From Parvularcula maris (lineage in GTDB: Bacteria; Pseudomonadota; Alphaproteobacteria; Caulobacterales; Parvularculaceae), in NCBI RefSeq assembly GCF_024505085.1, contig NZ_JANIBC010000010.1, positions 1 to 61,028 on the forward strand: DNA of 61,028 bases, in the 5' to 3' direction. Of this stretch, positions 11,681 to 52,769 are shown piece by piece. Within the stretch, counting starts at the first letter, position 1. Every line of letters begins with the position of its first letter. The notes below the pieces were generated by a model that worked only from the letters and a program-made list of their open reading frames with translations, was not told the DNA's origin and searched no databases. Position numbers and translations under genes: made by a program.

Positions 11681-13276
11681 ATGGGCGGACTGTCCAATAT
11701 CAACGCGCAATCGGCACTGAAACAGCTCGTCGGCGCGCAGAACAACAAGAAGAACCAGTTCGAAGGCTTCAGCCTCGGCGCCAGCGGAAGCGGGCTCAGG
11801 GGCTCGGCCTCGCAAGCCATCTTCAGCGTCTCCGGCGTCCTGCGCTCGGACCGCGCCATCCTTTCGGGTCTGGCGTCCAGCCTGTCCGGTGCCCGCGGTG
11901 CCGTGGCCGCCGCGCGTTCCGGCAGCGAGCAGATCACCGATACCCTCGCCCGCGCCGCGGACATCATCACGGCGGTCGAGAAGGGCGCCCCCGGCTCCGC
12001 GTTCAAGGGCGCGCTCAGCGGCCTTCAGGCCGAAGCCAACAAGGCCGTCCAGCAGGCAGGCTTCTCCGGCACCAACCTCCTGGTGGAGGGCGAGACCCTC
12101 AACATCACCTTCGGTGTGCAGGAGCGTGGCAACTACGACTTCCGCCAGGTGGGCATCGAGGCCGTCGGCCTTTCGCCTACGGAGGAAGCCCGCAAGGTGT
12201 CGTACACGACCCAGTCCGTCACCGAGACGGTGGAGGTCGAGGTCACCCGACAGGACCGCATCGAGCAGCGCATCGAAAAGCTGCAGGAGCGTCAGGAACG
12301 CCTTTCCACCCGCGAGACGCGCATCCAAGAGCGGCTTGAGCGGCTCGCTGCCCGTGAAGAACTGCTGGAGGCCCGCGCGGACCGTCTGGCGTCGCGCGCC
12401 GAGACCATCGAGCAAGGGATCGTCGATGCGGGTGGCCGCCCGACCGATTCCAAGGATCAGCGCGAGCTCGACCGTGCCAAGAAGACCAAGGCGCAGGGCG
12501 AGACCAAGATCGACGCTGGCAATCTTACGGCTGGCGAGAAGGCGCTGGAGCGCGCCGAGAAGACCGCCGACAAAGCAGGTCTCACCATCTCCCTCGACGA
12601 GCTGGAGCGTCAGGAGAACAGGCTCGCCAAGACGAACGACCGTCTCTCCCGCACCGAGCAGCGCATCGAGCGTGTCCAGGAGCGCCAGGTCAGGCTGACC
12701 GAGCGGCTGGAGAAGATCACCGAGCGCCAGGAGACCATCGGCGATCGTGTGATCACGCTGCAGGAGCGGATCGAGACCCTCTCCGAAGAGCAGCTCAATA
12801 AAGTCGTCGGCACACGCACCGAAACCGTCACCCGCGACGTGACCGTCGAGGTGGAGAACCCCGCCTCGGGCTCCTTCAGCGACATTCTCGGCGTCATCGC
12901 CCAGAAGCTCTCCGAGGGTGATACCGAAGGCGCCCGCGCCGTTCTCGGCGAGGCGCAGGCTCGGGTGGAACGTGTCGGTCGTCAGCTCGACCAGATCGAG
13001 AACACGATCGGTGGGCGGAAGACCTTCTTCGGTGCCGTCGAGGAGCGGCTGACCGACACCATCAAGGACCGGGTGGAGGAGAACCTGGACGAGGACTCGG
13101 CTGCCCGCCGCGCCGCCCTGGCCCTTGCCAAGCTGGAGAAGATCGGCCGCCTGTTCGAAGGCGAGGCCAAGCCCGGCATTCTGGAGCTCTTCACCTCTAA
13201 GGCCGCCGAGGAGCAGAAGACCGAGACGAGCATTCGTCCCTCTACAGAAGAAGAACCGGAGAAGGAAGACGCCTGA
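11681..13276 (+). CDS. flagellin-like protein with a long coiled-coil hairpin insertion
   Basis: The 531-residue product opens like a flagellin: SNINAQSALKQLVGAQ, a D1-like helical region, and FSGTNLLVEG near residue 130. A highly charged Glu/Arg-rich coiled coil occupies about 190-372 in two arms separated by a short break. Each arm is bordered by a similar strand, TETVEVEVT and TETVTRDVTVEV, suggesting an antiparallel hairpin standing on a beta base. The segment after about 433 (RQLDQIENTIG, later VEENLDEDSAARRAALALAKL) resembles the flagellin C-terminal D1 helix. The final hydrophobic D0 end is missing, and an acidic tail replaces it. The ATG at 11681 follows AGAGGG with 10 bases between. 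It may be an accessory filament component. Confidence 0.75.
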   Translation: MGGLSNINAQSALKQLVGAQNNKKNQFEGFSLGASGSGLRGSASQAIFSVSGVLRSDRAILSGLASSLSGARGAVAAARSGSEQITDTLARAADIITAVEKGAPGSAFKGALSGLQAEANKAVQQAGFSGTNLLVEGETLNITFGVQERGNYDFRQVGIEAVGLSPTEEARKVSYTTQSVTETVEVEVTRQDRIEQRIEKLQERQERLSTRETRIQERLERLAAREELLEARADRLASRAETIEQGIVDAGGRPTDSKDQRELDRAKKTKAQGETKIDAGNLTAGEKALERAEKTADKAGLTISLDELERQENRLAKTNDRLSRTEQRIERVQERQVRLTERLEKITERQETIGDRVITLQERIETLSEEQLNKVVGTRTETVTRDVTVEVENPASGSFSDILGVIAQKLSEGDTEGARAVLGEAQARVERVGRQLDQIENTIGGRKTFFGAVEERLTDTIKDRVEENLDEDSAARRAALALAKLEKIGRLFEGEAKPGILELFTSKAAEEQKTETSIRPSTEEEPEKEDA

Positions 13277-21847: not shown

Positions 21848-24800
21848 GTGAGCGCGGATGGTACCGAGGAATGCCCGGCGAAGTTTGAGCCGCAACTGAG
21901 CTTCCCCGTCATCGGCATCGGCGCTTCGGCGGGCGGTCTCGAAGCCGTGACGGAGATGCTGCGCGAGGGCGATCCGAACACCGGTATGGCCTTCGTGCTG
22001 GTTCAGCACCTCGACCCCAACCATGAGAGCATGCTGCCGGAGCTTCTCAGCCGCAAGACCAGGCTGAGCGTGCGCCAGGTCCGCAAGGGCGACCGGATCG
22101 AGCCGGACACGCTGCACATCATCCCGCCGGGCAACGCCCTCTCCATCGAGGAGGGGCGCTTCGTCCTGACCGCCTTCGACGAGCCGAGGGGCTTGAGGCG
22201 GCCGATCGACACCTTCCTGGAAAGCCTTGGCGCGGCTCAAGGGGCCGACTGCGCCTGCGTCATCCTCTCCGGCACCGGCGCCGACGGCTCGGAGGGGCTT
22301 CGCACGGTCAAGGAGATGGGCGGGGTCGTCCTGGTCCAGTCTCCCGAGACCTCCCGCTATGACGGCATGCCCAACTCCGCCATCGCCACAGGGCTTGCCG
22401 ACCACGTCATGCCCACGGGCGAGATGTTCGCCCGGCTGCACCGCTACTTCTCCAGCCGCGACAAGGGTGCCCTTCTCGGTAGCGGAGAGGAGCTCGAAAG
22501 CCAGCTCGACGAGATCGTCCGTACCTTGCGCGATAGCGTCGGGCACGACTTCTCCGGCTACAAGCACCCCACGCTCGTCCGGCGTATCTCCCGTCACATG
22601 CAGCTTACGGAGAAGCTCGACCCGGACGAGTATATCGCCTTCCTGCGCGCCTCCCCTGCCGCCTCCGAGGCCCTGTTCAGGGACCTCCTCATCAACGTCA
22701 CCAACTTCTTCCGGGACAAGGAGTATTTCGACCTCCTGCGGCGGGAGGTGGTCGAGCCTCTGGTGGAGAGCACCCCTCGCTCCCACCAGATTCGCGTCTG
22801 GGTGCCGGGCTGCTCCAGCGGCCAGGAGGCCTACTCCCTCGCCATGCTGTTCGATCATGTGGGCACACGGATGAACAGGCGACCTCTCGTGCAGATTTTC
22901 GCCACCGATGTCGACGACACCATGATCCGCATCGCGCGGGAGGGGCACTACCCGACCGCCGCCCTCAAGGACATACCCGAGGAGTTCCGCAACAGCTACA
23001 CGATCGGCATGGACAGCCAGTTCCGCATCGCGCCGAGGGTACGCGATATGGTGAGGTTCTCCGTCCACAACCTCGTCAAGGACCCGCCCTTCTCGAACCT
23101 CGACCTGATCTCCTGCCGGAACCTGCTCATCTATCTCACGGACAAGGTGCAGCAGCACCTCATCCCGCTGATGCACTACAGCCTCAGGCCGGGCGGCTTC
23201 CTCTTTCTCGGGCCGTCGGAGAGCATCGCGCGGCGCGAAGACCTCTTCGCCCCGATCGACCAGAAGGCTCGCCTGTTCAAACGCAAAGATACTCATGCCC
23301 GTGAGCCCATTCGGCTTCCCCTCGGCGTCGATACGCCGCGTGTCACCGCCCCGCGATCCGCTTCCCCCTCCCCCTATGCCCATCTCGAAGAGCGGACGGA
23401 AACGCCGAACACGGAGATCATGGAGCGGTTCGCGCCGCCCTTCGTCCGCATCAACGAGGACGGCGATGTCAGGGGCTCGTCCGGCGACCTCAGCCCCTAT
23501 CTCAAATCCTACCCCGGAGAGCGCGACCAGCATATCTTCAGGCTGGCCCGCGAGGGTCTGAGGGAAACTGTCTTTCCTCTGATCATGAAGGCTAGGAAGA
23601 CGGGGCGGCGGCAGGCGGCGAAGGATATCGAGGTGGAGTCGCAGTTCGGCATCCAGACCGTGGACGTCGTCGCCGAACCCTTGCGCGAGGGGCTGCTCGC
23701 CCTCGTCTTCATCAATGTCGGCCAGTTCCGCCAGAAGCTGCAGGACTACTATATCGAAGGCGGCGATGCGGACGACCGCGTCAACGATCTGGAGGCGGAG
23801 CTTCGCCTGACCCGCTACCGCCTGCGCGGGGCGGTGGAGGAGCTCGAGACCGCCAATGAGGAGCTGAAGAGCTCCAACGAAGAGATGATGTCGGCGAACG
23901 AGGAGCTTCAGTCGGCGAACGAAGAGCTCTCGACGGTCAACGAGGAGCTCAAGCACAAGGTCGACGAGCTGGGCGTGGTGAATGCCGACCTTGCCAACTT
24001 CCTCACCTCGATCAAGATGGCCGTGGTGGTGGTTGACCGCGACCTCATGGTGCGGACCTTCACCGACCAGTCGCGGCAGATCTTCCCCTTCCAGAACGCA
24101 GACAAGGGCAGGCCCCTTTCCGAGATCAACCTGCTCGTCGACGAGGTCAACCTCCTCAGCGACGTTCAGCACTGCATCGAGCATAACGAGCCGGTCGAGC
24201 GCGTTGTCGAAAACAAAGACAACACCATGACCTTCATTATGCGGATCCTACCCTACAAGTCCGCTGCCGGAGAGGTCGACGGCGCCACCCTCACCTTCAA
24301 CGACATCACCCGCCTCAAACGTCTCGAGAACGACGTCTATGAGAAGACCGAGCGGCTCCGGCTCGCCATGTCCATCGGCGAGATCGGCGTGTGGGAGATC
24401 GACCTCGATACCGACATCGTCGAGTGCGACGAGACCCTTCTCCGCCTCTTCGACATGCCGGAGAAGAAGGAGGTCACCGTCACCGACTTCATCGACCAGA
24501 TCCACCCGGACGACCGCGACCGCGTGCTTCAGGATTTCGAGAAGGCGAGGCGGGACAGGGGAGCCTACGAGCAGGAGTTCCGCATCCCCCTGCCCGACGG
24601 CTCCGTCCGTTGGCTGAAGGGCGTGGGGCAGCTGCTTCAGCTTCCCGCGGGCCAGCGCCGCATGCTCGGCCTCAACTACGACATCACCTTCGAGGAGGAG
24701 GCCCGCGAGAACCAGCAGCTCCTGGTGCGGGAGATGAACCACCGGGTGAAGAACCTCTTCGCGGTCGTCTCCTCCCTGATCAACACCACCGCCAAGAGAG

Positions 24801-42964: not shown

Positions 42965-45184
42965 CTACTCCACAGCCTTCAGATACTTATCCAAGAACCG
43001 CATAGTCGTCCCCAGCCGGTGCTCGGAGATGCCCTCCCCGCCCACGCCGTGGCGTTGGCCGGGATAGGTCATCATCTCGAACTCCTTGTTGCCCTCCTGA
43101 AGGATGGCGAAAACACGCGTCGAGTTGTCGAAGGTCACGTTGTCGTCCGCCATGCCGTGGATCATCAGAAGCGGCGTCTCCAGATCATCCAAGTAAGGAA
43201 ACACGGACGAGCTTTCATAGCCCTCAGGGTTGCCTTCGGGCGTGTCCATGTAGCGCTCCGTATAGAATGTGTCGTAGAGCGACCAGTCCGTCACCGGCGC
43301 ACCGGACACGGCCGCGCCGAACGTCCCCTCGGGCGCGCGCAGCGCCAGATGCAGGGTCATGTAGCCGCCGTAAGACCAGCCCGAGACGCCGATCCGATCC
43401 GCATCGACAAAGTCCTGGGAAGCCAGCCACTTCACACCCTGCAGCTGGTCCGCCACCTCGATATCCGACATCTGCCGGTGAATGACGTCCTCGAACGTCT
43501 TGCCGCGGTTATAGGAGCCGCGGTTGTCGAGCTGGAACACCACATAGCCCTGCTGCTGCATGTATTGCAGCGAGCCGCCGGTGAAGCTGTTGGTCACCCG
43601 CTGCACATGGGGGCCGCCGTAAACCTGCAGGATTGCGGGATACTCCTTGCCCGGCTCGAAGTCATAGGGCTTGATCAGGCGGTAGTGCATGACCTGCCCG
43701 TCCTCGGCCTCGATCGTGCCGTACTCCGGCGCCGAGTGGGCGTCGAGATAGGGCGCGTAGGGATGGTCCTCATCCAAAGCGTTCTCTGCCACCCAGGTGA
43801 TGAGCTCGCCATCGGCCGTATAGAGCCCGGTCTGGGGCGGGGTGTTGGCGTTCTGCGAGGTGCCCGCGAAGCTCTTGCCGTCAGGCGCCATGCGCACCGA
43901 CCAAGTGCGGCCCTCTTCGGTGATCCGCTCCGGCTCGCCAGGCTCGAGGTAGCTCACCTTGTAGAGGTGGCGCTCCAGCGGCGTCTCGCGGTTGGCCGTG
44001 AAGTAGACCTCGCCCGCCTCCTTATCCACGGCGCTGATCCCCAGCACCTGCCAGTCGCCGGAGGTCACCTGCACCGGCTCGCCGTCCTTGCCAAAGCGTA
44101 GAATGTGGCGGTAGCCCGTCTCCTCCGTGGTCCACAGGAACCCCTCGTCGAGGCTGCGGAAATCGTCCGACAGGTTGATCCAGGCTGGCTGCTGTTCGGT
44201 ATGCACCTCGGTCACCTCGCCAGAGCGTAGGTCCACGCTGGAGAGGGTCAGCTCGGTCTGGTCGCGGTTCACCGTTTCGATGAAGAGACGTTCCGCCCCG
44301 GCCCAGTGCACACGGGCCAGGTAGGTGTCGGGGGAGGCACCCCACTCCACTTTCACCTGCCGCCTCTTGCCCGGCTCGCGGATGAAGAGGTCCACCACCG
44401 CATTCGGGCGCCCTGCACGGGGATAGCGCTGCTCGATGACGGTCACGTCGCCCGCCGCGATGTCGAAGCGGGGGATAATGTCCACCGTGCTCTCGTCGGT
44501 GCGGGTATAGACGACGTAAGAATCGTCGGGGCTCCACCAGTTGCCGGTGTAGCGGCTCATCTCCTCCTGGGCGACGAACTCCGCCGTGCCGTATGAGACC
44601 GCGCCCTCTCCGCGAGGGCTCAGGCGCTGCTCGCGTCCGCTGGCGAGGTCGATGGCGTAGAGCGTGCCGTCCCGCAGGAAGCTGACATAGCCCCCGGACG
44701 GCGAGACCTTGGCATCGTACTCGAAGCCCTCGGTCTCGGTCAGGCGGCGGACCGATTTGTCGGCAACGTTCACCAGGAACAGGTCCCCGGCCGAAGGCAC
44801 CAGGATCTGCTCGCCCTGGCTGTCCCACTGATACTGCACGATGCCCTTGGAGCTGGCGATGCGCTTTCTCTCGCGCAGCGCCTTCTCCTCCTCCGAGAGC
44901 TCGAAGTCGTCGGGCTCCAGCGTCTTCGAATCGACCAGCATCGACGCCTCACCGGTCTCTACATCATAGGCCCAGAGGTCGAGCCGCGCCTGATCTTCCT
45001 CATTGGCGCGCAGGAAGGTCAGCATGGAGCCGTCCGGCGAGTAGGCCAGCGCCCTAGGCGCGGCGCCGGTCAGGGAGGGGCTGTCATAGAGCCGCTCGAT
45101 GGTCAGCTCTTCGGCGAGGGCGGGGGAGAGGGCGGCGCTCAGCGCCAGGACTGCACCAGCAGCCTTGAGAACATGGCTTTTCAT
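42965..45184 (-). CDS. S9B dipeptidyl-peptidase IV
   Basis: The 739-residue product has a signal peptide (AAGAVLALSAALSPALA), an N-terminal beta-propeller, and a C-terminal alpha/beta-hydrolase domain. Catalytic motifs are GWSYGGYM (Ser), GMADDNVTF (Asp) and GQRHGVGG (His). The EEMSRYTGNWWSPD segment of the S9B family is present. It should release X-Pro or X-Ala dipeptides from peptides in the periplasm. ATG 45184 places the signal peptide correctly. Confidence 0.93.
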   Translation of the reverse strand: MKSHVLKAAGAVLALSAALSPALAEELTIERLYDSPSLTGAAPRALAYSPDGSMLTFLRANEEDQARLDLWAYDVETGEASMLVDSKTLEPDDFELSEEEKALRERKRIASSKGIVQYQWDSQGEQILVPSAGDLFLVNVADKSVRRLTETEGFEYDAKVSPSGGYVSFLRDGTLYAIDLASGREQRLSPRGEGAVSYGTAEFVAQEEMSRYTGNWWSPDDSYVVYTRTDESTVDIIPRFDIAAGDVTVIEQRYPRAGRPNAVVDLFIREPGKRRQVKVEWGASPDTYLARVHWAGAERLFIETVNRDQTELTLSSVDLRSGEVTEVHTEQQPAWINLSDDFRSLDEGFLWTTEETGYRHILRFGKDGEPVQVTSGDWQVLGISAVDKEAGEVYFTANRETPLERHLYKVSYLEPGEPERITEEGRTWSVRMAPDGKSFAGTSQNANTPPQTGLYTADGELITWVAENALDEDHPYAPYLDAHSAPEYGTIEAEDGQVMHYRLIKPYDFEPGKEYPAILQVYGGPHVQRVTNSFTGGSLQYMQQQGYVVFQLDNRGSYNRGKTFEDVIHRQMSDIEVADQLQGVKWLASQDFVDADRIGVSGWSYGGYMTLHLALRAPEGTFGAAVSGAPVTDWSLYDTFYTERYMDTPEGNPEGYESSSVFPYLDDLETPLLMIHGMADDNVTFDNSTRVFAILQEGNKEFEMMTYPGQRHGVGGEGISEHRLGTTMRFLDKYLKAVE

Positions 45185-45461
45185 GACGCCTGACATGGCC
45201 GATGGGGAACCATCTGCCAAGCGGGAGGGGCAGGACTTCCGGATACCTGACCGCCTGCCTTCGAACCGGATCGAGCTGCTGAAAGCCTCTTAACGACGCT
45301 TCACCACGGCGCAGGCGAAGCCGGAGACCGTGGTGCCCAACTCCTCAAAGTAGATGACCGAGTGAGACTTCCGGTGATGGGTCCCACGGACAAGCCATGG
45401 GAAAGCGCTCAATAAGGACTCGAGGCTTCGCACACCGACATGCTGCCTTCGATGACACACC
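45185..45461. other. intergenic stretch with no recognised feature
   Basis: This gap separates the DPP IV start from the panD stop. I see no gene, riboswitch or strong terminator here. Confidence 0.4.
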
Positions 45462-45824
45462 CTACCCCCTGATCACCTCTTTCACGCTGTTGTCCTCGTT
45501 CATCAGCGCCACCACGGGGCGGTGGGTCTCCGCCTCCTCGGCGTCCACCTCGCAGAAGGCCGTGATGATGACCCGGTCGCCTGCGTGGGCGTGCCTAGCT
45601 GCGGCGCCGTTGAGCATGATCTGGCGGCTGCCTGCTTCCGCCGGCAGGGCATAGGTCGTCAGCCGCGCACCGTTGGTGATGTTCCACACATCGACCTTCT
45701 CGTTGGGCAGCAGGCCCACAGCCTCCATCAGCTCGGTGTCGATGGCGATCGAGCCCTCATAGTGGAGGTCCGTCATGGTCAGCGTCGCCTGGTGGAGCTT
45801 CGCCTTGAGCATGGTGAGGCGCAT
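45462..45824 (-). CDS. panD: aspartate 1-decarboxylase precursor PanD
   Basis: The 120-residue product has the PanD start (MLKAKLHQATLTMTDLHYEG), with self-cleavage expected between Gly24 and Ser25 in HYEGSIAID. Tyr58 in LTTYALPAEAGS and NGAAARHAHAGD are also conserved. The enzyme forms its pyruvoyl group by self-cleavage and makes beta-alanine for pantothenate and CoA. It stands alone; no other pan gene is in the window. Confidence 0.95.
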   Translation of the reverse strand: MRLTMLKAKLHQATLTMTDLHYEGSIAIDTELMEAVGLLPNEKVDVWNITNGARLTTYALPAEAGSRQIMLNGAAARHAHAGDRVIITAFCEVDAEEAETHRPVVALMNEDNSVKEVIRG

Positions 45825-46162: not shown

Positions 46163-49100
46163 ATGAAGAAGTATCTGGTCAGCACTTGCGCCGCGGCACT
46201 GGTCGCAGGAATCGTCGGCAGCACGGCGTTTGCAACGGACTTCACCGTCCGCGAGATGCACCTCGATCCTCTCGAAATGCATCTGGACCCGCTGGAGATG
46301 CACCTCGACCCTCTGGAGATGCACCTCGACCCTCTGGAGATGCACCTCGACCCTCTGGAGATGCACCTCGATCCTCTCGAAATGCATCTGGACCCGCTGG
46401 AGATGCACCTCGACCCTCTTGAGATGCATTTGGATCCGCTCGAAATGCACCTCGATCCGTTAGAGATGCATCTCGACCCCCTGGAAATGCACCTAGATCC
46501 GCTGAGCAAGATTCTCGGCTCCACGATCTTCACCGCCAACGAGATGCATCTTGATCCCCTAGAGATGCACTTGGACCCGCTCGAGATGCATTTGGACCCC
46601 CTGGAGATGCATCTGGATCCTTTGGAAATGCATCTCGATCCGCTGGAGATGCACTTGGATCCGCTGGAGATGCATCTTGACCCGCTCGAAATGCATCTGG
46701 ATCCCCTCGCTCTCGGTTTCGTCGCCCTTCAATACGGCAGTCTGAGCGGCAACCAGGCCATGATGTCCGGTCAGGGCAGCCTCTTCTGGGGTACCTTCCG
46801 GCCCATGGAGATGCACCTCGATCCTCTCGAAATGCATCTGGACCCGCTGGAGATGCAGCTCGATCCGCTCGAAATGCAGCTCGATCCCCTTGAGATGCAT
46901 CTCGACCCGCTGGCGCTCTTCATCGATCCGCTGGAGATGCACCTCGATCCTCTCGAAATGCATCTGGACCCGCTGGAGATGCACTTGGATCCCTTGGAGA
47001 TGCATCTCGATCCGCTCGAAATGCACCTTGATCCCCTTGAGATGCACCTCGACCCGCTGGCGCTCTTCATCGATCCGCTGGAGATGCATCTGGACCCCCT
47101 GGAGATGCATCTCGACCCGTTGGGCCTGTTCGCCTCTGCCATGGAGATGCACCTTGATCCTCTAGAGATGCATCTGGATCCGCTCGAAATGCATCTCGAT
47201 CCCCTTGAGATGCACCTGGATCCCTTGGAGATGCACTTGGATCCGCTTGAGATGCACCTCGACCCTCTCGAAATGCATTTGGACCCCCTGGAGATGCATC
47301 TCGATCCGCTGGCCGTGCAGCTCTACGTGCTGAGTGCCCACCTGCGGACCCTGGAGATGCACCTCGACCCCCTCGAAATGCATCTGGACCCGCTGGAGAT
47401 GCATCTCGATCCGCTTATGCTGCGCGCCCTGAACGCGCTCAGCCTCTCGGGCGACGGCATCTCCTTCGAGCGCTTCGAGATGCACCTCGATCCCTTGCGT
47501 CAGCTCGGTGATCTGGCCGCGGAACTCGCCGCTCTCGAACAGACCCTGGGCAGCCTCGACATGGTCGCCCTCGAAATGCACCTCGACCCCCTCGCCTTTG
47601 CCGAGGTGCAGCGGGTGATGGGCGCGATGGGTGGTCTCTCCGGCCTCACCCAGCAGATGACCCAGGTGGCCAGCGCCGTGGGCTCCTTGATCGGTGCCTA
47701 CGACACCTATCAGGACCTCTACACCCGCGCCGAAGAGCGCTACGGCAGCCTGATCGAAGCCGAAACGGGCCTTGGTTTCACCGAAGGTTTCCTGGAAGGC
47801 TTCTTCGAGAAGCACGGTCTTGAAGGCTCGGGCTTCGGCGACTTCCTCGCCATGAGCGAGGCCGACCGCACGCGCTTCCTGATCGACTTCAACGACCAGC
47901 TCTTCACCTTTGTCGGCGTCGACCACCCTGACCACTGGATGAGCGCCGTCAAATGGTCGCCGCGCCTCTCCGAGATCGCGGGCTACGGCGAGGGCGTCAC
48001 CATCGGCGTCGTCGACCAGGCCTTCGAAGGCGCAGGCCCCCTGGCCGAAGCCCCCGAGCTCGACGGCGGCATCTTCGCCGGACAGAACCACGGCCGCGCC
48101 GTGGCGGGTCTTGCCGCCGGGGCGCTGGACGGCGAGGGCGTAATGGGCGTGGCGCCGAACGCCACCGTCACGCTCTCCAACCCCTTCGATGCGCAGAGCT
48201 ACGCCGACGAGCAGGATGTGATGGCCTCCATCACCGCCGTGGGCCGCGCAGGTGCCTCGATCATCAACCTCTCCATCGGCGAGAGCGGTGCCACTTTTGC
48301 CGAGGGCTGGGACGAGGTCTTCCAGAACGGCCGCGTCGCCCAAGCGACCCGCGACGCGCTCTTCGTCCTGGCCGCCGGCAATGACGGCGTCGTCCAGGAG
48401 TTCGACGTCAACATGAACGGCACCCACGGCGCCGTGGAGCGGATCATCCTGGTCGGCGCCATCGACCCGCGCGGGAACATCGCCAGCTTCTCCAACACCC
48501 CCGGCGATGCCTGCTTCACCGTCGGCAGCGACTGCGTCTCCATGGCCAGCCGCTTCCTGGTCGCCCCTGGCCAGCAGCTCCTGGTCGCCACCGAGGACGG
48601 CATCGGCCGCACCTCCGGCACCAGCTTCGCGACGCCCATCGTCTCCGGCGCCGCAGCCCTCCTGCAGAGCCGCTGGGAGTGGTTGCAGCAGGAGCCCGAG
48701 GCCACCGCCGAGATCCTCTTCCGCTCCGCCGACGACCTCGGCGCACCGGGTGTGGACGCGGTCTACGGCCACGGCCTCCTCAACGTCTCGGCCTCGCAAC
48801 GGCCCCTGGACATCAACGCCCTCCGCTTCGAGGGCGCAGGGCTAGGCACCTCCGTCATCGGCGCAGGCCTCACCCCGCAGCTCATGGCGCGGGTCGATCC
48901 CACCGCCAGCCTCACCGCCTTCGAGACCGTCGGCAATACGTTCCGCGACTTCGAGATCCCCGTCGGCGTCCTCACCACCTCGGTCATCGACCCCGGCGTC
49001 AGCCTCGAGACCGCGGCGGAGACCGTCTTCGCTGGCCGCCTGGGCACGCCCATCGGCACCATCCAGTCGGTGGCCGGTCTCTCGGTGGCCGGTCAGGGCT

Positions 49101-50137
49101 TCACCGATGCAGGCGCCGTCGCCAGCCAGTTCTTCGGTGGCGAGGGTCAGGGCTTCACCCTTACCCTCGAGGCGCGCAAGCCCGCCCACGGCCTGGCCGT
49201 GCCTGAAGGCGCCGTGCCCTTCGAGACCCATGGCGAGCTCACCTCGGAGCGCACCGGCCTTGCCTTCCGCTTCGGCCACGGTGCCGGTGCCCTTGCCTTC
49301 ACCGGCGACAGCTTCGCCATGGTCTCCGACCACGACGTCCTCACCGGCGGCGTGAACCCGGTCCTCGGCCTCGCCTCGGGCGGCGCCTACCTGCAGCTTG
49401 AAGGCCAGCTTACGGGCCGCCTCAGCTTCTCGGGCGGCATCACCCACCGCCAGGACGCCGACCTCGTGGTCAACCCGTTCTCGGGCGAGCTGACCGAGCG
49501 CGTCGCGGGTACGGAGGGCTACAGCGCCTCCGCCGTCAACGCTGCGCTGGGCTACGCGGTCACCGAGGGCACGAGCTTCACCTTCGGCTACACGCTGCTA
49601 CAGGAGCGCCAGGGCTTCCTTGGCGGGCAGAGCGTCGGCGGCTTGAGCTTCGGCGAGGCAGCGCAGACCGGGGCGGTGACCGTCGGCGTCGAAAGCGCCC
49701 TGCCCTTCGGCCTCCAGCTCTCCGGCTCGGCCAGTGCAGGCCGGACCACGGGGGCGGGCGCGGCCAGCGGGCTTCTCGGTATCGACGAGGGCGGCATTCT
49801 CACCTCGTCCTACCAGCTCGCCGTGTCGAAGCGCGGCCTCTTCGGCGAGGACCGGGTGCGCTTCTCGATCGCCCAGCCCCTCCATGTGGAGAGCGGCGAT
49901 CTCGCCCTGCGCACCCTTGACGTGATCGACCGTGAGACCGGCGAGCGGGCCGTCACCGCCGACCTCATTGGCGTCGACCGCGCCGACCGCCGCTATGTGG
50001 CGGAAGTTCTCTACGGCCGCCCGGTGCTCGATGGCCGGTCCGAGCTGAGCCTCTTCGCCCAGCACGACACCGATCCGCTGCTGACCGCGGGCCAGAGCGG
50101 CACCACGGCGGGCATCCGGTTCCGCTCCGCTTTCTGA
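46163..50137 (+). CDS. EMHLDPL-repeat subtilisin-like autotransporter
   Basis: The 1324-residue product has a signal peptide (MKKYLVSTCAAALVAGIVGS then TAFA). Residues 31-477 hold a tandem array of the heptapeptide EMHLDPL. A linker follows, then a subtilisin (S8) domain with Asp618 in IGVVDQAF, His643 in QNHGRAVAG, oxyanion Asn740 in LAAGNDG and Ser821 in GTSFATP. After about 920 a beta-rich C-terminal region ends GTTAGIRFRSAF, with a terminal Phe, typical of an autotransporter barrel. The triad is complete, although the Asp motif is unusual. GGGAG seven bases upstream sets ATG 46163. It should be exported, inserted in the outer membrane and displayed or released. A terminator follows. The role of the repeats is unknown. 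Confidence 0.85.
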   Translation: MKKYLVSTCAAALVAGIVGSTAFATDFTVREMHLDPLEMHLDPLEMHLDPLEMHLDPLEMHLDPLEMHLDPLEMHLDPLEMHLDPLEMHLDPLEMHLDPLEMHLDPLEMHLDPLSKILGSTIFTANEMHLDPLEMHLDPLEMHLDPLEMHLDPLEMHLDPLEMHLDPLEMHLDPLEMHLDPLALGFVALQYGSLSGNQAMMSGQGSLFWGTFRPMEMHLDPLEMHLDPLEMQLDPLEMQLDPLEMHLDPLALFIDPLEMHLDPLEMHLDPLEMHLDPLEMHLDPLEMHLDPLEMHLDPLALFIDPLEMHLDPLEMHLDPLGLFASAMEMHLDPLEMHLDPLEMHLDPLEMHLDPLEMHLDPLEMHLDPLEMHLDPLEMHLDPLAVQLYVLSAHLRTLEMHLDPLEMHLDPLEMHLDPLMLRALNALSLSGDGISFERFEMHLDPLRQLGDLAAELAALEQTLGSLDMVALEMHLDPLAFAEVQRVMGAMGGLSGLTQQMTQVASAVGSLIGAYDTYQDLYTRAEERYGSLIEAETGLGFTEGFLEGFFEKHGLEGSGFGDFLAMSEADRTRFLIDFNDQLFTFVGVDHPDHWMSAVKWSPRLSEIAGYGEGVTIGVVDQAFEGAGPLAEAPELDGGIFAGQNHGRAVAGLAAGALDGEGVMGVAPNATVTLSNPFDAQSYADEQDVMASITAVGRAGASIINLSIGESGATFAEGWDEVFQNGRVAQATRDALFVLAAGNDGVVQEFDVNMNGTHGAVERIILVGAIDPRGNIASFSNTPGDACFTVGSDCVSMASRFLVAPGQQLLVATEDGIGRTSGTSFATPIVSGAAALLQSRWEWLQQEPEATAEILFRSADDLGAPGVDAVYGHGLLNVSASQRPLDINALRFEGAGLGTSVIGAGLTPQLMARVDPTASLTAFETVGNTFRDFEIPVGVLTTSVIDPGVSLETAAETVFAGRLGTPIGTIQSVAGLSVAGQGFTDAGAVASQFFGGEGQGFTLTLEARKPAHGLAVPEGAVPFETHGELTSERTGLAFRFGHGAGALAFTGDSFAMVSDHDVLTGGVNPVLGLASGGAYLQLEGQLTGRLSFSGGITHRQDADLVVNPFSGELTERVAGTEGYSASAVNAALGYAVTEGTSFTFGYTLLQERQGFLGGQSVGGLSFGEAAQTGAVTVGVESALPFGLQLSGSASAGRTTGAGAASGLLGIDEGGILTSSYQLAVSKRGLFGEDRVRFSIAQPLHVESGDLALRTLDVIDRETGERAVTADLIGVDRADRRYVAEVLYGRPVLDGRSELSLFAQHDTDPLLTAGQSGTTAGIRFRSAF
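46253..47593 (+). repeat. 21-bp tandem repeat array encoding EMHLDPL
   Basis: Blocks of units, in order: 12 at 46253-46504, 8 at 46541-46708, 15 at 46808-47122 (two of them ALFIDPL, two EMQLDPL), 8 at 47144-47311, 3 at 47354-47416, and single units at 47477-47497 and 47573-47593. That gives 46 EM(H/Q)LDPL units, 44 of them with His. Spacers are 12, 33, 7, 14, 20 and 25 residues; GLFASAM, AVQLYVL and SAHLRTL look like decayed heptads. Confidence 0.95.
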
Positions 50138-50196: not shown

Positions 50197-50279
50197 CGTG
50201 GGCACAACCAGGAGGGGAGCCGCGAAGACATTCTTAATGCCTTGTGATCTAGAGACCTCCCGTGAGCGAGGCTTCGACC

Positions 50280-52769
50280 ATGAGCCAAAAAAGAACCCTC
50301 GCGGCCCTGCTTGCTCTAATGAGCGCAGCCGCTTTGCAGCCCGCCGCCGGTAACCAGGCCGGCACGGGACCCGTCTCGCTGCTCGAACGCGCCCAGGCTG
50401 CCGTCCCCTCCGACACCGAAACGGGTCTTGCCCTGGCGCGCGAGGCCGCGGCCCTCGAGATGGCCGGCCCGACGCCGCGCTCCGCCGTCCTGCAGCGCGC
50501 GGCCTGGCTCGAGGCCGAAGCCCTGTTCCGCCTGGGCCGCCTGGAGGAAGCGGGCACCCATCTCGACAACGTCTTCGCCACCATCGAGGCGGAGAACACG
50601 CCGGTCTACGGCAAGCTGCTGATCGCCGATGGCCGCATCGCCAGAAGCCTCGGCCAGGACGGCCGCGCCCTCAAGGACTTCCAGGAGGCCTTCACGGTCT
50701 TCGCCGAGCTCGGCGACCGCCGCTACATGGCGATCTCGCTGCAGGCCATCGGCACGCTCTACCAGAACGCCCGCCAGTACGACCGCGCCATCGAATATAT
50801 CGAGCGCAGCCGCGCCATCGGCGCCGACGACCCGATGCTCACCGTGGCCGGGCTCAACAACGCCGCGAACGCCCACCGTTTCGCCGGTCGTCTCGACATC
50901 GCAAGGAGGCTCCTGCGCGAGGCCTTGGAGATGGAGGCGGTCAGGGCGCTCCCCTTCTGGCAGCTCACCATCCAGTCGAACCTCGCCCTCGTCGAGTGGC
51001 AGGCCGGAGAGATGGCTGCCGCCGCAGACGCCCTGTCCGGGGTGAAGGCGCTGATCGCCGAGAACCCCTCCCTCTCCCTGCCCCCCAATGCCGGGGCGAT
51101 CGAAGCCCGACTTCTAGCCACTGCGGGAAAGCCGCAGGAAGCCCTTGCCTCCCTCGCAAACAACTTCCCCGCCGAGAGCCTGAAGACCGCCACCGAAGCC
51201 TCACGCGAGGCCCATCAGATGGTCTACGCCCTCTACCGCGAGCTCGGCGTGACCGACCGGGCGCTGGCGCATCTGGAGACCTATAAGCGCCTCGTCGATG
51301 CCGAGCGGGACATCGCGGCCTCGGCCAACCTCGCCATCCTCAACGCCGAGTTCGAGCTCTCCGCCAAGGAGCTGGAGATCTCGAACGAGCGCTCCCAGCG
51401 CCTCGAGGCCGAAGTCGCCGCGTCCGAGGCCAAACGCCGCCAGCAGCTCGCCCTCGGCACCGCGGCCTGTTTCGCGGCCCTCGCCCTGGTCCTGTTCCTC
51501 GTCACCCGCATCCGCCAGTCGATCAGGCTGCAGCGCATCACCAAGGCCCACAACGCCAAGCTCGAGGACGTCAACGACCAGCTCCGCGAGAGCAACGCCG
51601 CCCTGGAGCAGGCGAACGCCGCCAAGACGGAGTTTCTGGCCACGACCAGCCATGAGGTCCGTACACCGCTCAACGCCGTCATCAACCTGACCGCCAATGT
51701 GGTCCAGGGCCTGCCCAAGGGCACCGACGCCCATCTCAAGCTCTCCACCGCCCTTCGCTCGGCCGAGCACCTGCACGCGATCGTCAGCGACGTGCTCGAT
51801 GTGGCCCGTTTCGAGGGCAAACGGGTGGAGGCGCGGATCAGCGAAGTGGATGTCGTCCGCACCGCGACGGACGTGGCGAACCTCTGGTCGCCCAAGGCCA
51901 AGGAGAAGAAGATCGGCTTCGAGGTCGCCTTCAGCCCCTCGGCGAAGCTCTTCCCCACCGATGACAAGCTCCTGCGTCAGATCCTCTCCAACCTTCTCTC
52001 CAACGCAGTGAAGTTCACCGAGGAGGGCTCGGTCAAGCTCAGCCTTTCCGGCGGCGGCGAGGACGACCTCACCCTGACGGTTTCGGACACCGGCATCGGC
52101 ATCGCACCCGCCGACCAGGCCTGCATCTTCGAGAGCTTCCGCCAGATCGACGCGGGCAGCACCAGAAGCTTCGGGGGTACGGGGCTGGGCCTCGCCATCT
52201 GCCGTCAGATCACCGATCTTCTCGGCGGCGACATCACCGTCAAGAGCGCCGTGGGCCGGGGCACGAGCATCACGGTCACCATCCCGCCGAGCGACGCCCC
52301 CGTCAGCGCGCTCGAAGAGGAGGAGCAGGAGAGCGCCGAGGAACCGTCTGAAGAGACCCTCCGCCCCCTGCGCATCCTCGCGGCGGAGGACAACGCGGTG
52401 AACGCCATGGTGATCCAGGCCATCCTGAAGAACAAGGTCAGCGGGCTCACCATCGTCGAGAACGGCGCGGAGGCCGTCACCGCGGTCACCAATGGCGGCT
52501 TCGACGTGGTGCTGATGGACAAGCAGATGCCGGTCATGGACGGCGTCGAGGCGATCAGGCGTATCAGGGCGCTGGAGGGTCCCGAGCGGGCAATCCCGAT
52601 CATCGCCGTGACCGCCGACGCCTTCGCCGAAGCCCGCGAGGAGCTGATGGGGGCGGGTGCGGACGACTACCTTTCCAAGCCGGTCAAGCCGGAGGATCTC
52701 AAGGAGTCGATTGCCGCCACCTATAAGGGCCGCGGCGGCCAGGCCCCCCTTGCGAAGAACGCGGGTTGA
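50280..52769 (+). CDS. hybrid sensor histidine kinase with TPR-like sensor region
   Basis: The 829-residue product has an N-terminal hydrophobic signal, a TPR-like helical region (about 45-370; repeated A-L/Y-N patterns such as FQEAFTVFAELGDRRYMA), and one membrane segment at about 390-410 (LALGTAACFAALALVLFLVT). A coiled linker leads to a HisKA domain with His458 in TTSHEVRTPLNAV, an ATPase domain (NLLSNAVKFTEEG, DTGIGI, FGGTGLGLAI), and a receiver domain with Asp747 in VVLMDKQMPVMDG. The TPR region is probably periplasmic. It stops 15 bases before nagA, so it is likely co-transcribed with cell-wall recycling genes. The ATG at 50280 is preferred over the GTG at 50262. Confidence 0.9.
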   Translation: MSQKRTLAALLALMSAAALQPAAGNQAGTGPVSLLERAQAAVPSDTETGLALAREAAALEMAGPTPRSAVLQRAAWLEAEALFRLGRLEEAGTHLDNVFATIEAENTPVYGKLLIADGRIARSLGQDGRALKDFQEAFTVFAELGDRRYMAISLQAIGTLYQNARQYDRAIEYIERSRAIGADDPMLTVAGLNNAANAHRFAGRLDIARRLLREALEMEAVRALPFWQLTIQSNLALVEWQAGEMAAAADALSGVKALIAENPSLSLPPNAGAIEARLLATAGKPQEALASLANNFPAESLKTATEASREAHQMVYALYRELGVTDRALAHLETYKRLVDAERDIAASANLAILNAEFELSAKELEISNERSQRLEAEVAASEAKRRQQLALGTAACFAALALVLFLVTRIRQSIRLQRITKAHNAKLEDVNDQLRESNAALEQANAAKTEFLATTSHEVRTPLNAVINLTANVVQGLPKGTDAHLKLSTALRSAEHLHAIVSDVLDVARFEGKRVEARISEVDVVRTATDVANLWSPKAKEKKIGFEVAFSPSAKLFPTDDKLLRQILSNLLSNAVKFTEEGSVKLSLSGGGEDDLTLTVSDTGIGIAPADQACIFESFRQIDAGSTRSFGGTGLGLAICRQITDLLGGDITVKSAVGRGTSITVTIPPSDAPVSALEEEEQESAEEPSEETLRPLRILAAEDNAVNAMVIQAILKNKVSGLTIVENGAEAVTAVTNGGFDVVLMDKQMPVMDGVEAIRRIRALEGPERAIPIIAVTADAFAEAREELMGAGADDYLSKPVKPEDLKESIAATYKGRGGQAPLAKNAG

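Follow-up and report, generated by a model that had tools for sequence, protein, structure and literature searches.

Organization of the locus

The window, that is, the whole stretch of 61,028 nucleotides of Parvularcula maris that we analysed, harbours a gene for a subtilase with a long N-terminal array of heptapeptides, and downstream of it on the same strand a gene for a sensor protein. The relevant features are the following.

46163..50137, + strand: S8 subtilase bearing a heptad array and a putative C-terminal beta region (1324 aa; ORF and Pfam match; orthologues known)
46163..46237, + strand: signal peptide, end approximate (the N terminus is hydrophobic in KD windows that start at residues 4-6)
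46253..47593, + strand: heptad array (44 EMHLDPL and 2 EMQLDPL in nine runs, 2 ALFIDPL, 111 linker residues)
46784..46804, + strand: FWGTFRP within a 33-aa linker that is conserved in orthologues; possibly a relic of a FWGDINP-type heptad
47594..47990, + strand: helical region joining array to protease (helices in both AlphaFold models)
48080..48775, + strand: Peptidase_S8 match, residues 640-871 (PF00082, E 2.8e-31; catalytic Asp just upstream)
48812..50134, + strand: C-terminal region ending in Phe, possible outer-membrane translocator (beta-rich by analogy with a modelled paralogue)
50262..52769, + strand: adjacent sensor with signal-like N terminus, TPR, hydrophobic segment, HisKA, HATPase_c and receiver
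50394..51431, + strand: TPR sensor domain (residues 45-390), predicted to be periplasmic and proposed as the receptor of the heptad

A Pfam scan of the window protein placed it among the S8 proteases (PF00082, E 2.8e-31). In 160 family proteins selected by their Ser motif, with duplicates kept, the His motif was found in 157, the Asp motif in 153 and the oxyanion Asn in 158. The AlphaFold model of a paralogue from the same genome shows 12 terminal strands, and the C terminus of the subtilase may form an outer-membrane barrel. A Foldseek search with the paralogue model yielded S8 proteins only, among the 50 of 910 matches listed, and the window protein and the family members scanned had no Pfam autotransporter or barrel match above cut-off. 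AlphaFold gave no confident fold for the array of the window protein (modelled over residues 25-883) or of the paralogue; because array pLDDT values were ~21-49, we make no claim for a solenoid or a fibre.

The gene order around the subtilase/sensor pair is conserved in Parvularcula lutaonensis, Parvularcula mediterranea and, within the reach of its contigs, the Parvularculaceae MAG DT_81. Upstream of the pair and divergent from it, each of the four Parvularculaceae genomes that we compared has two genes (minus strand, 42965-45220 and 45462-45824 in the window), which we take to code for a DPP IV-like peptidase and a PanD-like protein.

The EMHLDPL array

Residues 31-477 contain 44 exact EMHLDPL, 2 EMQLDPL and 2 ALFIDPL heptads, with EM[HQ]LDPL runs of 12, 8, 5, 6, 2, 8, 3, 1 and 1 units. 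The ORF thus bears out the 46 EMHLDPL-type units, two of them with His replaced by Gln, and the two ALFIDPL variants counted in an earlier sequence-only reading of this DNA. That reading described the segment as made almost entirely of heptads, which is too strong, as linkers of 7-33 aa each account for 111 of its 447 residues (25%). The predicted layout agrees with its proposal that the repeats sit between the signal peptide and the subtilase and should be exported together with the latter.

The number of identical heptads is far beyond chance. A degenerate DNA pattern for EMHLDPL gave 44 matches in the 3.19-Mb genome, all of them inside the window gene and none elsewhere, and the reversed-pattern control gave 0. 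The 46 units are encoded by 37 different DNA sequences, i.e. their uniformity is at the protein level. As the unit codons are so varied, recent slippage alone would be insufficient to account for the array. Other 21-bp tandem repeats occur in the window at 23837-23953, 12680-12734 and 24121-24164, perhaps coding for coiled coils.

We also considered the Pfam family DUF7310 (PF23991), for which the whole-protein score of 45.3 exceeds the cut-off of 40. This score sums weak repeat matches, no single stretch passes the cut-off, the match covers 35 residues of repeat, and both Parvularcula orthologues scanned lack it. We judged it to be a repeat artefact.

The orthologues of P. lutaonensis KCTC 22245 and P. 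mediterranea ZS-1/3 harbour near-uniform arrays of 32 DLHIDPL and 34 SLHIDPL units, respectively, with 12- and 33-residue linkers at matching places. Thus, the arrays of the three Parvularcula species are near-uniform within each species and differ between species. In DT_81, where the gene is on a contig fragment, the units read (N/T/S)LHLDAL.

A family of heptad-bearing subtilases

We scanned a genome collection for relatives, found 137 and kept 79 loci. According to their record titles, they belong to Parvularculaceae, Maricaulis and relatives, Hyphomonadaceae, Caulobacteraceae and Sphingomonadales. The heptad subtilase is not universal: it was found in 12 of 61 related genomes and, at E<=1e-100, in 27 of 114, 16 of 19 and 17 of 101 genomes of the genera of three named loci. 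The N termini of 50 of the 79 loci mostly hold heptads such as WGDINPF, YGNLDAF, WGSVSPF, GGDINPF and WGNLDSF. The other 29 were missed by our first motif filter and are absent from the array table; a wider motif later took them up. The sequence-only reading knew of no family with this repeat; in homologous subtilases, the same slot does hold heptads, and these share the register x-x-x-[ILV]-x-[PAST]-[FL].

The unit profile W/Y-G-D/N-I/L-x-P/A-F was drawn from 147 of 160 loci, with duplicates kept. Position 4 is I, L or V in 99.7% of the units, position 6 is P, A, S or T in 99.7% and position 7 is F or L in 97%, figures for which only the skew inside the pattern is informative since the search pattern itself restricts positions 4-7. 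Many species carry mixed heptads, which is not expected of one strict peptide code.

Subtilisins are known for their preferences at P2 and P1. The unit resembles a subtilisin site, with a hydrophobic P4, Pro, Ala, Ser or Thr at P2 and Phe or Leu at P1, so that cleavage after each unit by the protein's own subtilase domain is plausible from the sequences. Various residues precede a run (Y 47, F 43, Q 40, S 37 and T 23 in 289 runs, duplicates kept); hence cleavage is unlikely to be alike at every junction, and clean excision of every unit is doubtful. Savinase and BPN' favour Phe over Ala at P4, and AAPF is a standard substrate (PMC3168465).

In a search of the genus Phenylobacterium, three heptad-type subtilase genes were found in tandem in one genome (G349 C1:2921688-2931338). 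Two loci, L060 (G004 C1:311178-313499) and L222, have subtilase copies with one in-frame stop.

A conserved TPR partner

In the 61 related genomes, 18 heptad-S8 genes (E<1e-60) were detected in 12 genomes, and their pairing with TPR genes was matched by coordinates. A TPR gene lies beside 17 of them, and the 18th ends at a contig end; in one pair (G001 C37) the array itself is on another contig. Conversely, with the TPR part as query, all 17 matches at E<=1e-30 adjoin a heptad-S8 gene, and a single weak match (3e-7) lies elsewhere. The genome of the window has a second subtilase/TPR pair on contig 2, also with a histidine kinase. In 71 of the 79 named loci, the TPR gene is within 900 bp on the same strand, and in five of the other eight it is elsewhere in the locus. 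It was not found in the remaining three (L074, L092 and L146), of which L146 stops at a contig end.

We scanned 57 neighbours of 780-1050 aa, namely 56 of the 65 downstream ORFs found and the window's own. TPR_12 was detected in 56 of them, HisKA/HATPase in 25, EAL in 31 and GGDEF in 20, and a hydrophobic segment follows the TPR in all 72 partners of at least 700 aa. Thus, the constant part of the neighbour is a TPR input, and the output varies between histidine kinase and EAL/GGDEF domains. We rejected a view of the partner as a histidine kinase only: BLAST with the window sensor matched 75 of the 79 loci, but many of these matches are EAL/GGDEF proteins that share the TPR part alone.

Based on hydropathy, the TPR domain is predicted to be periplasmic. 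A PDB search with its profile also recovers RapI, RapF and RapH, which are peptide receptors (E 4.6e-8 to 4.2e-7), ranked below many generic TPR proteins; these matches are supportive at most of a heptad ligand. We found nothing relevant on periplasmic TPR sensors in the open-access literature.

Heptads and TPR domains vary together

The subtilases of Ponticaulis sp. SP186 (L089, a MAG) and Ponticaulis koreensis DSM 19734 (L090) share 94% of their protein sequence, and all 29 aligned units change from WGNLDSF in the former to WGNLDTF in the latter, with mixed codons. Over 12.5 kb compared in 250-bp bins, identity is 0.776-0.860 in the array and 0.660-0.748 in the TPR half of the sensor gene, vs 0.88-0.98 in the other interior bins. 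These are the only two interior valleys, and between them lie ~2.5 kb in which the subtilase and C-terminal sequences are conserved; the outermost bins, at 0.848 and 0.668, are alignment ends outside these genes. The sensors of this pair are 71% identical in the TPR part and 98% in the kinase part. G169, which has the S unit and an S-type TPR, served as a same-unit control: its TPR part is 99% identical to that of L089 and 71% to that of L090, which has the T unit, and its kinase part is 96-97% identical to both (96% for L089).

The Ponticaulis clade comprises seven genomes and 21 pairs. In three deeper pairs with the same unit, TPR and kinase parts are about equally conserved (0.69-0.70 vs 0.68-0.72). 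Fourteen of the 17 pairs with different units have TPR identities of 0.44-0.50 vs kinase identities of 0.62-0.71, and two more are the L089/L090 and G169/L090 pairs. The exception is L090/L086 (T vs S), with no TPR deficit against the kinase (0.67 vs 0.68).

Codon divergence in this genus is 0.51 for the array linkers and 0.52 for the TPR part, and ~0.2 elsewhere. As the two values are alike and far above the rest, they point to the array and TPR segments having been imported. We dropped in-place mutation of every unit as the origin of the switch: the linkers are equally diverged (0.51, vs 0.21 outside the heptads) and the borders are sharp, which argues for exchange of the whole segment in the array.

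A second clade includes L113 (WGEINPF units) and L129 (WGEISPF units), MAG contigs labelled Phenylobacterium and Caulobacteraceae, the array of L113 being cut by the contig end. TPR windows of this pair are 23-53% identical, and kinase windows 90-100%. The S8 segment after the array has diverged too (28-53%), and the ligand thus need not be the heptad alone. The association of unit and TPR was found in two of the three pairs of this clade; L113/L123 has a TPR deficit of 0.16 against the S8 domain. Co-variation of putative ligand and sensor domain between conserved flanks, as in pherotypes, is therefore present in two clades, with L090/L086 as the exception.

For pairwise counts, we left out 22 of 159 loci without a nearby TPR ORF, many of which are cut by locus or contig ends, then 12 of 138 loci with fewer than four units and 35 near-identical loci, to obtain 91 distinct loci. 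Among the 65 pairs with S8 identities of at least 0.75, TPR deficits above 0.2 were found in 8 of the 10 pairs with no shared unit and in none of the 55 with a shared unit (Fisher 8.9e-9), although these 65 pairs are not independent and the 10 disjoint-unit pairs stem from two clades. At S8 identities of at least 0.80, the counts are 4 of 5 disjoint-unit vs 0 of 31 shared-unit pairs (8.5e-5). In each of the six identity bins, mean TPR identity is lower for the disjoint-unit pairs. The partial Mantel correlation over 59 loci is r = 0.29 (P = 0.0028), and r was 0.12 for the C-terminal TPR half (60 loci). Before the latter analysis we left out L079, L169 and 3 of 63 pairs that had fewer than four units, and before the Mantel test on 59 loci also L110 (same genome as G172).

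The effect is weak among the window, P. lutaonensis and P. mediterranea (TPR 0.55-0.63 vs kinase 0.62-0.70); the gap is wider against DT_81 (0.41-0.53 vs 0.63-0.66). Because of this weak effect within Parvularcula, the argument for the window draws mainly on its relatives.

A putative ligand and its proposed receptor

We propose, with a probability of roughly 0.65, that the TPR sensor encoded immediately downstream has the heptad array as its ligand, or as the part of its ligand that determines specificity. Such a relation would account at once for the gene pairing, the need for identical units, the array-wide switches between species and the fact that two separated segments change together. 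The array would be exported together with the subtilase and its translocator-like C terminus, and the heptads, as an array or as cleaved peptides, would bind directly to the predicted periplasmic TPR domain and control the histidine-kinase output, or the EAL/GGDEF output in other lineages. Recognition by one receptor would select for dozens of identical units, whose codons could vary freely or under selection. Acquisition of a new receptor type by a lineage would entail a change of the entire array, as in peptide pherotypes. The ligand might be the intact array, a fragment cut from it or a single free heptapeptide, acting either from cell to cell or within the periplasm of one cell; the subtilase domain of the same protein could plausibly release free heptapeptides by cutting after each F/L. 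One point against a ligand is that a peptide of ~0.8 kDa would have to reach the periplasm from outside.

More tentatively, the locus might represent a Gram-negative peptide-pheromone system. One autotransporter would carry 20-46 tandem species-specific heptapeptides together with the subtilase that frees them, the adjacent kinase or c-di-GMP enzyme would read these peptides through its predicted periplasmic TPR domain, and ligand and receptor would be swapped as pherotypes. We put this fuller scheme somewhat short of even odds.

The array might instead be structural, i.e. a surface fibre, an adhesin or a matrix protein that owes its uniformity to its structure, with the TPR sensor monitoring secretion or assembly in the periplasm. 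Uniform tandem repeats, the W/Y-G-rich units of most relatives and the exported position would suit such a passenger, and a periplasmic monitor could meet it before secretion. However, a structural role alone does not explain why array-wide single-residue changes (S to T, N to S) accompany the replacement of the TPR half next door, and AlphaFold gave no confident fold for either array. We thus regard it as unlikely, if worth keeping in mind.

It is improbable that the array and the TPR part vary independently, each as a recombination hot spot or under selection by phages or grazers, so that their joint divergence would reflect coincidence or shared ancestry. The codon divergence of the Ponticaulis linkers (0.51) and TPR (0.52) does point to imported segments, and few independent clades are available. 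Nevertheless, the ~2.5 kb between the valleys are conserved, same-unit pairs keep their TPR, the TPR domain is predicted to be periplasmic rather than surface exposed, and the association recurs in the second clade and in every identity bin.

A decoy or timer, in which a run of preferred cleavage sites would delay or inhibit the protein's own subtilase, would accord with unit ends resembling subtilisin preferences, such as that of savinase and BPN' for Phe over Ala at P4, and with AAPF being a standard substrate (PMC3168465), but it leaves the TPR partner and its co-variation without a reason and is very improbable. Metal or proton binding, which the sequence-only reading had suggested and for which the main-type Parvularcula unit offers one His and one Asp, is scarcely credible and was rejected on family-wide residue frequencies, the His-equivalent position 3 being mostly D, N or S and the Glu-equivalent position 1 mostly W or Y.

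Comparison with known systems

Most known cases of peptide quorum sensing through TPR receptors are from Gram-positive bacteria. In RRNPPA systems, as described in PMC11343458, which also regards them as mainly Gram-positive, peptides of 5-10 aa bind TPR receptors encoded adjacently. According to the same paper, propeptides may hold 1-4 copies and are matured by extracellular proteases, with a title cited there naming subtilisin for CSF (PMC11343458). These systems (Rap/Phr, PlcR/PapR and NprR/NprX of Bacillota) are the closest working analogue of the heptad/TPR pairs, as a 7-aa unit is encoded beside a TPR protein in both cases. In contrast, the heptads are alphaproteobacterial, with up to 46 copies inside a 1324-aa autotransporter-like protease, and the RRNPPA propeptide has 50-120 aa, although both are encoded next to a TPR gene. 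RRNPPA receptors are soluble cytoplasmic TPR proteins that act on DNA or protein targets, whereas here the TPR is joined via a hydrophobic segment to HisKA/HATPase or EAL/GGDEF domains. Because of the receptor topology and the propeptide size, the heptad/TPR system is not a member of RRNPPA, even though it would work like such pheromone-TPR pairs.

The two-valley pattern is comparable to the competence pherotypes of Streptococcus, which differ in ligand architecture, receptor domain and phylum. In the ComC/ComD system, the adjacent sensor kinase varies too. Polymorphic types of the ComC/ComD peptide signal are described in PMC5629823.

The protein shares its predicted signal peptide, S8 domain and putative C-terminal beta region with subtilase autotransporters of the NalP/SphB1/EprS type, unlike which it has a long N-terminal heptad array and a TPR partner. 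The EprS model matches the own-genome paralogue weakly (21.8 bits vs a cut-off of 1700). Other S8 domains with model or structure matches are those of mycosins, cyanobactin PatA/PagA and lanthipeptide proteases, of which the latter two groups cut peptide precursors. The family models score far below their cut-offs (mycosin 78.4 vs 278.75 bits, PatA 45.8 vs 421.05).

In the open-access literature, we found no description of the EMHLDPL repeat, nothing relevant on GDINPF, WGDINPF, WGNLD, FWGDI or SLHIDPL units, and nothing on a heptapeptide repeat combined with a subtilisin autotransporter. Among the open-access titles and abstract openings listed, we found no account of a heptad system for Parvularcula or Maricaulis autotransporters and none of Gram-negative peptide pheromones borne by autotransporters. 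What is new is the architecture; should the signalling logic be confirmed, parallels to it are already known. Were the heptad a ligand, the system would be a separate signalling design, linked to two-component and c-di-GMP signalling, whose ligand could be read off the genome sequence. A synthesizable heptapeptide and a receptor domain would then be at hand for each species, making specificity directly testable.

Codon mixing in the arrays

The array exemplifies how a natural repeat can be uniform in protein yet mixed in codons, a point relevant to the stability of tandem-repeat genes. The numbers of DNA variants per unit set are 37 of 46 in the window, 23 of 32 in P. lutaonensis and 31 of 34 in P. 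mediterranea; the latter uses both AGC and TCN codons for the unit Ser. In these three arrays, neighbouring units are less alike in their codons than shuffled ones (P 0.0004, 0.013 and 0/5000, respectively). Five of nine distinct arrays show this excess (the same three, L089 and L117; P<0.02). It was not seen in L086, L090 and L114, and L097 has the opposite sense. Such mixing is a natural counterpart of codon scrambling; with five of nine arrays, we keep selection against DNA repeats as a side observation only. Finally, L089 and L154 encode an identical array protein, and two 40-residue windows in their long heptad runs differ at 43-46% of codons, vs 3-17% in the other array windows, which suggests local turnover of units.
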